In this document: positions 2,531 through 13,424 of the stretch, piece after piece
Numbering within the stretch: the stretch's first letter is position 1
Layout: each line of letters starts with the position of its first letter
Assembly (NCBI GenBank): GCA_017416665.1
Contig: JAFQBO010000047.1
Span: 1 to 15,644, forward strand
Reading direction: 5' to 3'
Source of the DNA: Oscillospiraceae bacterium
GTDB lineage: Bacteria > Bacillota > Clostridia > Oscillospirales > Ruminococcaceae
DNA length: 15,644 bases
Notes under the pieces: model-generated
Databases searched by the model: none
Seen by the model: the letters and a program-made list of their open reading frames with translations, nothing else
What the model was told of the DNA's origin: nothing
Program-made: the position numbers and the translations under genes

Positions 2531-2550
2531 GTAATCAACAAATAGAAAAC

Positions 2551-2722
2551 GTCCTGTGAGGGAGTAGTTGGCGAAATATCGTGGCAAATCAACATCATGG
2601 CTTTTTAAGTCTGGTTTGTCTTAAATAACGAGACTCACGTACTGGCTTGATAGCAGAGCTGTGCGTGTGTGTGAATTATGAAGCTAACGGGTACAGCAAA
2701 TTGAAGGCTGTACCCGTTTTTT
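2551..2722 (+). promoter_or_regulatory. Candidate yybP-ykoY (Mn2+) riboswitch leader with expression platform
   Basis: Seen directly: outer stem P1, GTGAG 2556-2560 with CTCAC 2634-2638; GGAGTAG (2561-2567) on its 5' side and AACGAGA (2627-2633) on its 3' side; small hairpin GCGA/TCGT (2571-2574/2579-2582); stem P3, GGCAAATC 2583-2590 with GGTTTGTC 2613-2620; asymmetric internal loop AACATCAT (2591-2598); and apical stem GGCTT/AAGTC (2599-2603/2607-2611). The order GGAGTAG, long arm with a CATCAT-type loop, GAGAC closing P1 is the layout I know for the yybP-ykoY family, whose members bind Mn2+ and usually switch genes ON. The 3' part (2636-2722) holds alternative pairings and an intrinsic terminator. 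The structured leader is solid; the class assignment was made by eye and is less certain. Confidence 0.6.
2686..2722 (+). terminator. Intrinsic terminator inside the ABC operon leader
   Basis: A perfect 12-bp stem, AACGGGTACAGC (2686-2697) with GCTGTACCCGTT (2707-2718), has a 9-nt loop and a run of six T (2717-2722). It lies 28 nt before the ATG of the ABC ATPase and 150 nt downstream of that operon's own promoter, so it is an attenuator and not the end of the upstream gene. Its 5' arm (2691-2697) can instead pair with GCTGTGC at 2658-2664, giving an antiterminator. Confidence 0.88.
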
Positions 2723-2750
2723 GTTGTAATGATATGAAAGGATTGATAAT

Positions 2751-3449
2751 ATGTTTATTGAAATCAGTGGAATTAAGAAAGGTTTCGGAGAAGGAGAGAG
2801 CCGTGTTGAAGTTTTAAAGGGAATAGACCTTGAATTGCAGAAGGGTGAATTCTGTGTACTTCTTGGCCCATCAGGTTCAGGGAAATCTACATTGCTCAAT
2901 ATAATCGGCGGTATTGATAATCCCGACAGCGGATTTATCACCGTCAATGGCGAAAAGACAGCTGACATGAACGAGAAAAATCTCACCATTTACCGCAGAA
3001 AGCATTTAGGCTACATTTTCCAGATGTATAACCTTATCCCGAATCTTAACATAAAAGAAAATGTTGAAGTCGGAGCATATCTGAGTGATAATCCGCTTGA
3101 TGTTGATGAAATACTCAACATTCTCGGTCTTTATGAGCACCGTCACAAGCTTCCGAATCAGCTTTCAGGCGGACAGCAACAGCGTACAGCAATCGGAAGA
3201 GCAGTAGTAAAAAATCCTGATATACTTCTTTGTGATGAACCGACAGGAGCACTCGACTATAATACTTCAAAGGAAATTTTAAAGTTGATTGAGGATATAA
3301 ACAAGAAGTATGGTAATACAGTAATAATGGTAACACATAATGATGCTATAAAGGATATGGCAGACAGAGTTGTGAAACTGCGTGACGGAATGATTCGTAA
3401 GAACTATGTAAATGAGAACAAGATTTCAGCAATGGATCTTGACTGGTAA
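2751..3449 (+). CDS. ABC transporter ATP-binding protein, MacB/LolD type
   Basis: A 232-residue cytoplasmic ATPase that powers the FtsX-type permease encoded next to it. All ABC motifs are intact: Walker A GPSGSGKS at 39-46, Q-loop Gln91, signature LSGGQ at 138-142, Walker B ILLCDE at 158-163 followed by the D-loop ALD, and H-loop His196. The PTGALD and short C-terminus are typical of the MacB/LolD/BceA branch, which exports or extracts amphipathic peptides, lipids or drugs and does not import sugars. The start follows AAAGGA (2737-2742). It is the first gene of a two-gene operon under the riboswitch-like leader and the attenuator ending 28 nt upstream. The substrate cannot be read from the sequence; no two-component system lies next to it, unlike typical bacitracin-type modules. 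Confidence 0.95.
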   Translation: MFIEISGIKKGFGEGESRVEVLKGIDLELQKGEFCVLLGPSGSGKSTLLNIIGGIDNPDSGFITVNGEKTADMNEKNLTIYRRKHLGYIFQMYNLIPNLNIKENVEVGAYLSDNPLDVDEILNILGLYEHRHKLPNQLSGGQQQRTAIGRAVVKNPDILLCDEPTGALDYNTSKEILKLIEDINKKYGNTVIMVTHNDAIKDMADRVVKLRDGMIRKNYVNENKISAMDLDW

Positions 3450-3468: not shown

Positions 3469-5715
3469 ATGAAAAATCCTCTTACAAAAAGACTTCCGAA
3501 AGAATTAAAATCTGAACTTGGAAAGTACATTGTTTTGTTTGTATTTATCACAGGTATGATTGCACTTGTTTCAGGTTATCTTGTAGCCGGAAAAAGCATG
3601 ATGAATGCATACAATGAAAGCTTTGACAAGTATAATATTGAAGACGGTAATTTTGAAAGTTTTCAACAGCTTAACAGTGAAGTGTTGAAAACTTTAGAAG
3701 AAGAACAGGTCGAAATATATGAAAACTTTTACATAGAAGAAAATGTTAAAAATAATGACAGTACACTCAGACTTTTTTCAGAACGTAAAGAAGTAAACAA
3801 AGTATGCATCATGGATGGTAACCTTCCGGAAAATCCACAACAGATTGCGATCGACAGAGTTTATGCAAAAAATAACGAAATATCTGTTGGTGATACACTT
3901 ACTGTCGGTGAAAAAGATTTTGAAGTAACTGGTTTCGTTGCACTCTCAGATTATTCAACACTTTATCAGAATCCGTCGGATATGATGTTTGATGCTATTA
4001 AATTTGGTGTAGCCGTACTTACTGACGAAGGATTTGACAGCTTTACCGATAGCAATATGCATTATAGCTATTCATGGACTTATAACACGCCTCCTGCTGA
4101 TGATATTGAGGCAAAGACAATGTCAGAAGATTTTCTGGAGGTACTAAGCCAGAATACCATGCTGACAAATTATCTTCCTGCATATACCAATCAGGCTATT
4201 CAGATGGCTGGAAATGACATGGACGGCGATACACAGATGATGGCTGTTCTGCTTTATATGATGATGGCGATTATAGCGTTTATTTTTGCAATTACAACAA
4301 GTAATACTATTATGAAAGAATCAGCTGTAATAGGCACACTCCGTGCATCAGGATATACAAAAGCAGAATTAATCAGACATTATATGACAATGCCGATGAT
4401 TATTACACTTCTGTCAGCTGTTGCGGGTAATATTTTGGGCTATACGGCACTTAAAGAATTTGCAATAAATATGTATTATAACAGTTTCAGCCTTACAACC
4501 TATAAAACGCTCTGGAATGGTGAAGCCTTTGTAATGACAAGCGTAGTTCCGCTGATAATGATGTTTATTATAAATTTCCTTATTCTTGCAAAAAAAATGA
4601 AACTTTCACCGCTTAAATTTATAAGACGTGATTTAAGTACAAGAAAAAAGAAAAAAGCGTTTAAGCTGAATACGAAAATAAATATTCTGACAAGATTCAG
4701 ATTAAGAGTAATATTCCAGAATATTCCGAATTATATTACAATTATTGTTGGGATAGTATTTGCAAATCTTATTTTACTGTTTGGATGCGGACTTGAACCG
4801 CTTATCGATCATTATAGTAAAGAAATAACTTCAAATATGATTTCGGATTATCAGTATATTTTAAAAGCTCCGCTTGAAACTGAAAATCCTGACGCTGAAA
4901 AATTCTATGCAAATAGCCTTAAAGTGACAGAAAAATCAGAAGAGGGTGTAAACGTTTACGGAATAGTACCTGACAGCCGTTATATTGACCTTGATTTAAC
5001 TTCAGAGGGTATTTATATATCCAACGCTTACGCCGAAAAATATGGTATAAATGAAGGCGATACGGTAAAGCTCAGAGGCAGTTATGACGAAACGGAGTAC
5101 AGCTTTGAGGTAGACGGAATATATTATTATCCATCAACTATTGCAGTTTTCATGTCAGACAGTATTTTCTGTGAAACATTTGATATTGATGCAGAAAATT
5201 TTGCAGGATATTTTTCAAGTACAGAAATAACAGACATTGAAAAAATGTATATTGCTACAGAAATAACCGAAGAAGATCTTACAAAGACATCAAGACAGAT
5301 GAAAAATTCATTCGACGGTATGGGCGGACTTCTTTCGGCATTCGGTATAATTATATTTATGCTGATTATTTATATGCTTTCAAAAATTATTATTGAAAAG
5401 AATGCACAGTCGGTATCAATGACAAAGATATTAGGCTATTCAGACAGGGAAATAAACAGTCTTTATATAACAACTACTTCAATAGTGGTTATAGCATCAT
5501 TAATCCTTACAATGCCTCTTGTAAGTATCTTTATAGACAAGGTAATGGATATTGCATTATCAGGATATTCAGGTTATTTACCGTTTTATGTTCCTTTCAG
5601 TGTGTACGTAAAGATGGTAGCATTAGGCGTAGTATCTTATGCAGTTATAGCCTTTATGCAGATGCGAAGAATAAAGAAGGTTCCGCTTGATATTGCACTC
5701 AAGAATGTTGAATAA
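3469..5715 (+). CDS. ABC transporter permease, FtsX/MacB-type, two FtsX domains
   Basis: A 748-residue membrane protein. An in-frame ATG exists at 3412 inside the ATPase gene, but the start at 3469 has a strong GGGAGG (3453-3458) at 10-nt spacing and gives the expected N-terminus, so it was chosen. About eight membrane segments are visible in a 1+3+1+3 layout: 20-40, an outside domain 41-255, then 258-278, 308-326 and 355-374 (FtsX domain 1, with the loop ESAVIGTLRASGYTKAELIRH), 424-443, a second outside domain 444-615, then 621-642, 667-689 and 713-732 (FtsX domain 2, with KILGYSDREINSLY). This architecture fits mechanotransmission or export ABC systems acting on lipids or peptides. It lies 19 nt downstream of the ATPase in one operon. 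The substrate is unknown. Confidence 0.93.
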   Translation: MKNPLTKRLPKELKSELGKYIVLFVFITGMIALVSGYLVAGKSMMNAYNESFDKYNIEDGNFESFQQLNSEVLKTLEEEQVEIYENFYIEENVKNNDSTLRLFSERKEVNKVCIMDGNLPENPQQIAIDRVYAKNNEISVGDTLTVGEKDFEVTGFVALSDYSTLYQNPSDMMFDAIKFGVAVLTDEGFDSFTDSNMHYSYSWTYNTPPADDIEAKTMSEDFLEVLSQNTMLTNYLPAYTNQAIQMAGNDMDGDTQMMAVLLYMMMAIIAFIFAITTSNTIMKESAVIGTLRASGYTKAELIRHYMTMPMIITLLSAVAGNILGYTALKEFAINMYYNSFSLTTYKTLWNGEAFVMTSVVPLIMMFIINFLILAKKMKLSPLKFIRRDLSTRKKKKAFKLNTKINILTRFRLRVIFQNIPNYITIIVGIVFANLILLFGCGLEPLIDHYSKEITSNMISDYQYILKAPLETENPDAEKFYANSLKVTEKSEEGVNVYGIVPDSRYIDLDLTSEGIYISNAYAEKYGINEGDTVKLRGSYDETEYSFEVDGIYYYPSTIAVFMSDSIFCETFDIDAENFAGYFSSTEITDIEKMYIATEITEEDLTKTSRQMKNSFDGMGGLLSAFGIIIFMLIIYMLSKIIIEKNAQSVSMTKILGYSDREINSLYITTTSIVVIASLILTMPLVSIFIDKVMDIALSGYSGYLPFYVPFSVYVKMVALGVVSYAVIAFMQMRRIKKVPLDIALKNVE

Positions 5716-12951: not shown

Positions 12952-13079
12952 GTCAATATATGGTATTTAATGGACAGTTATGTTTTTGAGGTATAAAACA
13001 TATGCTTTAAGTCAATTATAATTTCAGAAATAAATTTGAATCGCAAAAGAGTTGAAAGACTCTCGGAATGGAGAATATT

Positions 13080-13424
13080 ATGTCAGTTAAACGAGGAGAA
13101 ATCTACTATGCCGATTTAAGCCCTGTTGTAGGTTCTGAACAGGGCGGAATAAGACCGGTACTTATAGTGCAGAACGATGTCGGCAACCGTCACAGCCCGA
13201 CTGTTATAGCAGCAGCAATAACCAGCCAGAAGGAAAAGGCAAAACTTCCGACACATATTGAACTCAGTGCAGATGGATGTGGACTTTCAAAGGACAGCGT
13301 TGTTCTGCTCGAACAGATACGTACTATCGACAAAAAACGCTTAAAGGAACGTATGGGCGAACTCGACAACGGCTCTATGACCAAAATAGATACCGCCCTT
13401 TCCATCAGCTTCGGCCTTGCATAG
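13080..13424 (+). CDS. mazF: MazF/NdoA endoribonuclease toxin
   Basis: A 114-residue, sequence-specific single-strand endoribonuclease of the PemK/MazF family. The start at 13080 gives [23 protein letters not shown], which lines up with the Bacillus NdoA start and puts the catalytic residues at Arg25 and Thr48, as in B. subtilis MazF. GGAG at 13070-13073 lies 6 nt upstream; an in-frame ATG at 13068 overlaps this site and is unlikely to be used. Other conserved blocks are [13 protein letters not shown] (24-36), AKLPTHIEL and [16 protein letters not shown]. Length and residues predict an active toxin. The usual partner antitoxin mazE (ndoAI) is not upstream: 12832-13067 has no suitable reading frame. 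The gene is therefore an orphan here, with an antitoxin elsewhere or a purely regulatory role. Confidence 0.95.

Follow-up and report, generated by a model that had tools for sequence, protein, structure and literature searches.

A predicted compact manganese riboswitch of the yybP-ykoY class ahead of a type VII ABC transporter operon whose leaderless homologs mostly carry an iron-type operator

The window analyzed here is the whole stretch of 15,644 nucleotides at positions 1 to 15,644 of contig JAFQBO010000047.1 (assembly GCA_017416665.1) from an Oscillospiraceae bacterium. The promoter, leader and two genes described first lie on its + strand. A sigma-70-type promoter, TTGACT-17-TATAAT with a TG before the -10 element and 11/12 consensus matches, is found at 2502-2530 and is followed by a structured leader and two genes. 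The first encodes an ABC ATPase of the MacB/LolD/FtsE type (2751-3449, 232 amino acids), recognized by family matches, and the second encodes an ABC permease with two FtsX domains (3469-5715, 748 amino acids), recognized by family and fold matches, for which the start at 3469 is more likely than one at 3412. Directly upstream of the leader, positions 425-2419 encode an LRR_5 protein that carries a type I dockerin, which may point to a cellulosome-type Ruminococcus as host. A small protein at 13068-13424 resembles MazF by eye. A preliminary description of this DNA had named a promoter, a P1 helix, a core, a P3 helix with an internal loop and an attenuator, and all of these were found where it had placed them. 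The present analysis adds a hairpin (T1) overlapping the P1 3' strand, an antiterminator pairing, and an iron-box-like site over the -35 element.

The leader stretch at 2537-2730 is more stable than its shuffles (z = -3.9), and a compact aptamer of the yybP-ykoY (Mn2+) class is predicted within it at 2551-2643 from covariance-model score and covariation. P1 pairs GTGAG at 2556-2560 with CTCAC at 2634-2638, as indicated by sequence, covariation and fold. The L1 core, GGGAGTAG at 2560-2567 (GG(G)GAGUAG in the class), is invariant in 21 relatives and runs into an inner closing helix of GTT at 2567-2569 with AAC at 2627-2629, where 3/3 pairs have changed on both sides. A P2 hairpin (2571-2582, strands 2571-2574/2579-2582) is supported by a 79-leader alignment and by the fold, and P3 (2583-2620, strands 2583-2590/2613-2620) by alignment columns and covariation. 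Within P3, the L3 sequence AACATCAT at 2591-2598 lies below an upper stem (2599-2601/2609-2611), and the 3' core, AACGAGAC at 2627-2634, is identified by sequence and invariant columns. The minimum free energy structure of 2556-2638 consists of P1, the inner helix, P2 and P3 (-17.1 kcal/mol). P3 is joined to the 3' core by the linker UCUUAAAUA, which forms no helix, so P4 and a four-way junction are absent.

The RNA resembles known yybP-ykoY members (L. lactis yoaB, E. coli mntP and X. oryzae) in its L1 GGGAGUAG, its L3 UCAACAU with an invariant A, and its 3' CGAGAC core. The TCAACAT motif lies at 2589-2595 and has identical letters in E. coli mntP; A2591 is invariant in 21 relatives. By our placing, A2591 is presumably the counterpart of the X. 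oryzae Mn-site adenosine. The L3 adenosine is reported to confer Mn2+ specificity in the X. oryzae riboswitch (PMC6754395). Unlike the four-way structures of L. lactis and X. oryzae, the window RNA without P4 would form a three-way junction. This also applies to the S. pneumoniae mgtA Mn riboswitch, described as a three-way junction, which makes P4 optional in the class (PMC9495176), but there the target is a P-type Ca/Mn ATPase.

The match to Rfam model RF00080 that the preliminary description had expected was not found: no hit in the window reached the gathering score, and a cut-off relaxed to E<=10 brought up nothing in 2480-2780 or in the source genome, a fragmented assembly that is 64% complete. 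The preliminary description had named such a negative, combined with a lack of covariation, as grounds for rejecting the class, and controls were therefore run on the model. The E. coli alx leader, which we take to be one of the validated class members, gave no RF00080 match, and the E. coli mntP leader scored 41.6 bits, under the gathering score of 45. A set of 20 relatives of the window leader, including 17 that lie ahead of a gene for MntP, a P-type ATPase or a CaCA protein, gave no score at gathering and one match at E<=0.1 (L020, 21.1 bits). Alignment to E. coli mntP indicates that the pairs of the model are P2, P3 and P4 only; it has no P1 and stops short of the 3' core. The negative is uninformative for the window because the alx and mntP controls fail and because the model includes a P4 that this RNA lacks. 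RF00080 was discarded as a judge of class after the E. coli controls failed.

A leader search by blastn (E<=0.01) gave matches in 40/297 family genomes, the source genome included; most of them cover the aptamer, and a few are confined to the terminator. Foreign leaders with the full motif precede MntP, cation P-type ATPases and CaCA antiporters, and two (L003 and L005) precede the same ABC ATPase as in the window. The 29 foreign loci were reduced to 21 by omitting three without the full motif (L024, L029 and L031), the two ABC leaders, one whose contig ends before the downstream gene is readable (L012), and two near copies (L008 and L021). The resulting alignment (A1), which is free of ABC leaders and whose members all precede an MntP, P-type ATPase or CaCA gene, was used to build a covariance model (R1). 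RNAalifold on A1 recovered the inner helix together with P1, P2 and P3, and 11/24 pairs showed double changes. When 79 leaders were aligned to R1, an alignment that was fitted to the R1 structure, 22/25 pairs had changed on both sides, each of the five helices had such pairs, and 94.7% of paired cells were standard pairs versus 28-46% with the partners slid. The covariation check proposed in the preliminary description was thus strongly positive in both alignments.

R1 scores the window at 87.9 bits (E 4.3e-22), which is not a blind test because the training set was itself assembled through similarity to the window leader. Eleven other ABC leaders score 71.6-85.8 bits and the L156 leader scores 64.2 bits. 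R1 finds the E. coli mntP riboswitch at 20.4 bits in the same position as the RF00080 match, and it has no match in the E. coli alx leader. With this score and 22/25 covarying pairs, the earlier class call stands: judged from its sequence, 2551-2643 is an aptamer of the yybP-ykoY class without P4. The leader is very likely a manganese aptamer, with Mn2+ as the predicted ligand. The Rfam model overlooks a compact form that is common here, with R1 matches (E<=0.001) in 218/394 sampled genomes of the order versus RF00080 gathering at 0/20 loci.

The identity of the ligand can be addressed through gene context. Downstream genes were read at 60 of the 150 R1 matches listed, hand-picked from the top to about rank 126 (64.7-92.9 bits), with weaker matches outside the sample. 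A gene for MntP, an MntP-like protein, a P-type ATPase or a CaCA protein lies downstream at 56/60, in fetched stretches of 2.5 kb or less at contig ends, and 52 of these 56 export-type genes are <=350 nucleotides from the aptamer. By eye, the other four have a P-type ATPase fragment (L095), a DUF47/PiT pair (L110), a UPF0016/GDT1-like gene (L133) and a TetR gene (L142). An ABC ATPase of the window type follows 0/60 of the sampled order-wide elements. Since Mn-export-type genes predominate so strongly, the gene context of R1 elements is that of a Mn2+ switch, in agreement with the earlier statement that the class normally precedes metal exporters. The preliminary description had offered two accounts of the ABC target, a manganese-linked envelope or export function or a variant aptamer for a different ligand. 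The first fits better, judging from the shared core and the context of the sampled relatives. Separately, one weak R1 element (L081, 31 bits) is followed by a gene that by eye resembles oxaloacetate decarboxylase beta.

The target itself, an ATPase with a two-FtsX-domain permease, is as first described. The MacB/LolD-type ATPase and a permease combining FtsX domains with an extracytoplasmic domain are the marks of type VII systems. Among the families compared, the permease shares its fold with BceAB, YbbAP, HrtBA and LolCDE at about 10-16% identity, with 30 permeases from the best 120 of 7996 scored serving as structure input. At E<=0.001 no NCBIfam family matched the permease, and a PDB search by sequence gave nothing but weak LolF matches (E 0.3-0.5). 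The operon is, on these family and model-based features, a type VII (FtsX/BceB/YbbP-like) ABC system, for which any substrate is conjectural.

The combination of riboswitch leader and ABC target recurs at 13 loci. The leader is present at 4/30 family ABC loci and at 9/13 loci fetched by close protein similarity, and in 25/29 family genomes with a permease match no leader was seen on it, although in a few, among them L157 and L166, the contig ends first. A strict ortholog trait was rejected, as the close homologs L146 (61%), L148 and L149 (57%) lack the leader. A tree of 38 kept sequences, which left out the fragments L042, L043, L044, L172 and L173, needs at least two changes of the riboswitch label. 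In the simplest reading of this tree, the ABC transporter would have gained the riboswitch at least twice. At L156 (genome G226), a second promoter-like stretch lies between the riboswitch leader and the ATPase gene, with a GAACA..TGTTC-type palindrome that by eye is TetR-operator-like.

Homologs that lack the leader have a different upstream signal. Within 220 nucleotides of the ATPase gene, a perfect GTTAG-N6-CTAAC is found at 15/25 leaderless homologs and a copy with <=1 mismatch at 20/25, a count that omits L157, L166, L170 and L171 (ATPase not located) and L173 (too little upstream sequence). Against 200 shuffles of each region, 0/200 were as good for 14 of the 15 perfect boxes and 1/200 for that of L165. 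No box occurs in the 220 nucleotides before the ATPase at the 13 leader-bearing ABC loci, a stretch that is filled by the leader. In eight genomes, the pattern occurs 6, 10, 8, 11, 12, 0, 9 and 4 times versus 3, 0, 1, 2, 1, 0, 0 and 3 times for the reversed pattern in the same order; G160 is the genome with 0, and G019 has no excess (4 vs 3).

The genes next to these boxes point to iron. Neighbors in 20 box regions include FeoA, FeoB, Fe_dep_repress, DUF3793, DUF2325 and ABC exporters (17 box-adjacent genes were run against Pfam and the others read by eye), and some regions have no recognizable iron gene (e.g., L198, L202, L203, L206, L209 and L210). In the source genome, 5/5 perfect boxes precede feoA, feoB, flavodoxin, DUF3793 and DUF2325 genes, and an Fe_dep_repress gene lies on contig C66, where the feo and flavodoxin boxes are also located. 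The genome of the close relative L032 (G297) has eight perfect boxes, at FeoA, FeoB, DUF2325, NifH-like, iron-hydrogenase-like and flavodoxin genes, some of them recognized by eye. GTTAG-N6-CTAAC is, from this distribution, the mark of an iron-type (DtxR-type) regulon with a putative DtxR-type regulator. The likeness to DtxR-type iron regulons with FeoAB and flavodoxin lies in the palindrome at feoA, feoB and flavodoxin and in the Fe_dep_repress gene on the contig; the differences are a GTTAG-N6-CTAAC spacing that appears unlike the usual DtxR box and the presence of a Mn riboswitch in the same leader. Iron-related roles are also suggested for DUF3793 and DUF2325, because both carry the box that marks feo and flavodoxin genes. 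Boxes at such genes were seen at L212, L214 (on the source genome's contig C16), L193, L199, L205 and L208 (by eye).

A pattern search places a candidate operator, GTTAGCGTTGACTAAT, at 2495-2510 in the window, one mismatch from GTTAG-N6-CTAAC and overlapping the -35 element. It is the only box with <=1 mismatch in the window, where 63/200 shuffled windows also hold one somewhere; for the upstream region the shuffle frequency is 0.004. It is kept letter for letter in the same place in L032. At 6/13 leader-ABC loci, a box with <=1 mismatch touches the edge of the aptamer or lies within the 100 nucleotides before it, versus 0.017 expected from shuffles. These six (the window, L032, L033, L036, L038 and L156) represent about four lineages, and the box is perfect in L036 and L038. 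At canonical (non-ABC) leaders the count is 0/21. Counting against the site, in 8/8 riboswitch-ABC genomes searched the box at <=1 mismatch is rarer than the reversed pattern. The L036 box has the ABC operon on one side and a divergently oriented gene on the other and may serve the latter, and L038 looks alike. Whether the window promoter has a working iron box is finely balanced, and binding of the regulator there is a prediction from the sequence.

These distributions bear on the possibility that the ABC system is simply an exporter of Mn2+ or a Mn complex in place of MntP or a P-type ATPase, with the iron box irrelevant here. This would agree with the leader's usual position ahead of Mn-export-type genes. 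Consistent with it, 10/12 riboswitch-ABC genomes searched have no R1 element at the main MntP gene, and GGAGTAG was not seen within 420 nucleotides in the 8 MntP upstream regions located (of 9 fetched). Such an exporter is nonetheless unlikely, given that most leaderless homologs have the iron-type box and that the permease has the fold of BceAB, YbbAP, HrtBA and LolCDE, systems that handle amphipathic substrates or act mechanically and do not handle free ions. Replacement of MntP by the ABC system is likewise not supported, because 16/16 genomes searched have an MntP match, 15 of them over the cut-off and that of the source genome weak.

The leader's expression platform suggests how the aptamer would act on the operon. 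An intrinsic terminator, T2, is predicted at 2686-2718 (-19.9 kcal/mol) with a U-run at 2717-2722, ahead of the start at 2751, and represents the attenuator that had been proposed before the ABC genes. A simple terminator scan of the window with a loop limit of 8 found none; T2 was missed because its loop is 9. Upstream of it, folds place the hairpin T1 at 2636-2667, with its 5' arm overlapping the P1 3' strand. Folding of 12 ABC leaders gave two hairpins in each, T1 overlapping the P1 strand and then T2. T1 has a U-run in 10/12 of them and none in the window, and T2 is thus taken as the window's terminator. In the close relative L032, there is a U-run at T1 and the U-run of T2 is interrupted.

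In relatives with a single terminator, the P1 3' strand doubles as the terminator 5' arm. The arrangement resembles the L. lactis riboswitch, where a P1 strand is reported to be common with the terminator and Mn2+ to stabilize P1.1 and prevent termination (PMC11087558). In the window, an antiterminator (AT, 2658-2697) is predicted from folds and arm swaps, in which 2658-2664 of the T1 3' arm pair with 2691-2697 of the T2 5' arm, extended by pairs at 2666-2668/2687-2689. At high Mn2+, docking of the aptamer would stabilize P1, which would keep the strand needed by T1. The freed T1 3' arm and the T2 5' arm would then form the antiterminator, allowing read-through into the ATPase-permease operon. 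At low Mn2+, T1 would form, T2 would fold, and transcription would end at about 2722.

When P1 is imposed on a transcript that stops short of the T2 3' arm, AT is part of the best fold of the window (-16.6 kcal/mol vs -19.9 for T2). With P1 forced in the full leader, the minimum fold still forms T2, and the relay must therefore be kinetic. In 21 leaders with a second hairpin, whose arms were chosen by hand from folds and in which similar hairpins may pair by descent, T1:T2 arm pairing is on average stronger matched than swapped (permutation p 0.0002). The values are p 0.0006 for leaders without a T1 U-run and p 0.015 for ABC leaders alone. Pairing is below the swapped mean in 6/21 (L004, L005, L034, L036, L038 and L040), and 5 of these 6 are ABC leaders. 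An ON switch working by termination seems quite probable, the ON direction being a prediction, and a functional T1/AT/T2 hairpin relay is about an even call. A review on C. difficile describes the class as OFF switches and gives a P-type ATPase as the single target predicted for a Mn riboswitch in that genome (PMC11477304). The OFF label counts against a Mn-ON reading and is at odds with L. lactis, where the mechanism shown is an ON switch (PMC11087558).

A different account of the platform is that T2 is a constitutive attenuator and that the window switch, having lost the T1 U-run, is decayed or responds weakly to manganese. This would fit the split between the window and L032, the forced-P1 fold of the full leader that keeps T2, and the fragmented, 64% complete state of the source genome. 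Decay appears quite unlikely when set against an intact, high-scoring aptamer and the formation of AT under forced P1 before the T2 3' arm exists. In addition, six leaders that similarly lack a T1 U-run (L006, L009, L014, L019, L022 and L028) pair above the swapped mean, and L034 does not.

Together, these data are most likely explained by recruitment of a Mn-ON riboswitch onto an iron-regulon type VII ABC system. The aptamer class, its covariation, the alternative hairpins, the target genes and the operator distribution are established at the level of sequence. They probably reflect a compact, P4-less yybP-ykoY Mn-ON transcriptional switch ahead of an ABC operon whose leaderless homologs mostly carry an iron-type box. 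In some leader-ABC lineages, including that of the window, an operator-like site would have been left at the promoter. The transporter would then be expected to act in Mn/Fe imbalance. More tentatively, and with somewhat less than even confidence, the two signals may form a two-metal gate, in which an Fe-repressor site open at low Fe and a Mn-ON riboswitch with its relay would lead to the exporter being made at high Mn:Fe. Gut bacteria may in this way switch a transporter on by the balance of manganese versus iron. In E. coli, a surplus of Mn is reported to cause iron starvation (PMC9603457), and a high-Mn/low-Fe gate is physiologically sensible for this reason. If such a gate is true, FtsX-type ABC systems of gut Clostridia would have a role in metal imbalance, with a Mn riboswitch recruited at least two times.

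It is very unlikely that the aptamer is a variant for another ligand (Fe2+, Ca2+ or a metal complex) suiting an iron-linked transporter, an idea drawn from the missing P4, the target's kin in the iron regulon, and the reported Ca2+ binding, besides Mn2+, by the three-way S. pneumoniae mgtA aptamer (PMC9495176), given that the ABC leaders keep the core letters that are invariant in MntP-type leaders and that their R1 scores (71.6-87.9 bits) fall inside the spread of scores seen for the 60 order-wide leaders that were sampled.

The Mn-ON switch proposed here combines known and new elements. The class to which the riboswitch belongs is known, and the new elements are a compact form that Rfam does not detect, an ABC operon as target, a proposed relay of hairpins and a candidate iron box as partner. 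The window RNA differs from known yybP-ykoY examples in its tandem hairpins with a possible antiterminator, in its FtsX-type ABC target, and in falling below RF00080 detection. The literature searched, at the level of titles and abstracts, gave no Mn riboswitch ahead of an FtsX-type ABC operon; it does not extend to the founding papers of the class, where an earlier mention is possible. For the type VII systems BceAB, YbbAP, HrtBA, LolCDE and MacB, metal-sensing RNA control was likewise not found in that literature. With this locus, the targets of Mn riboswitches would come to include an operon for an FtsX-type ABC system. The locus would also link an uncharacterized ABC family of gut Clostridia to metal homeostasis through an iron-type operator and, independently, through a Mn riboswitch. 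A further compact member of the class may already be filed in Rfam under another name. SSRC10 (RF02617), listed as a Streptococcus sRNA, aligns end to end with the MntP-linked leader L027:1501-1616 (genome G060), scoring 33.2 bits where gathering is 56, and SSRC10 is itself probably a P4-less yybP-ykoY riboswitch.
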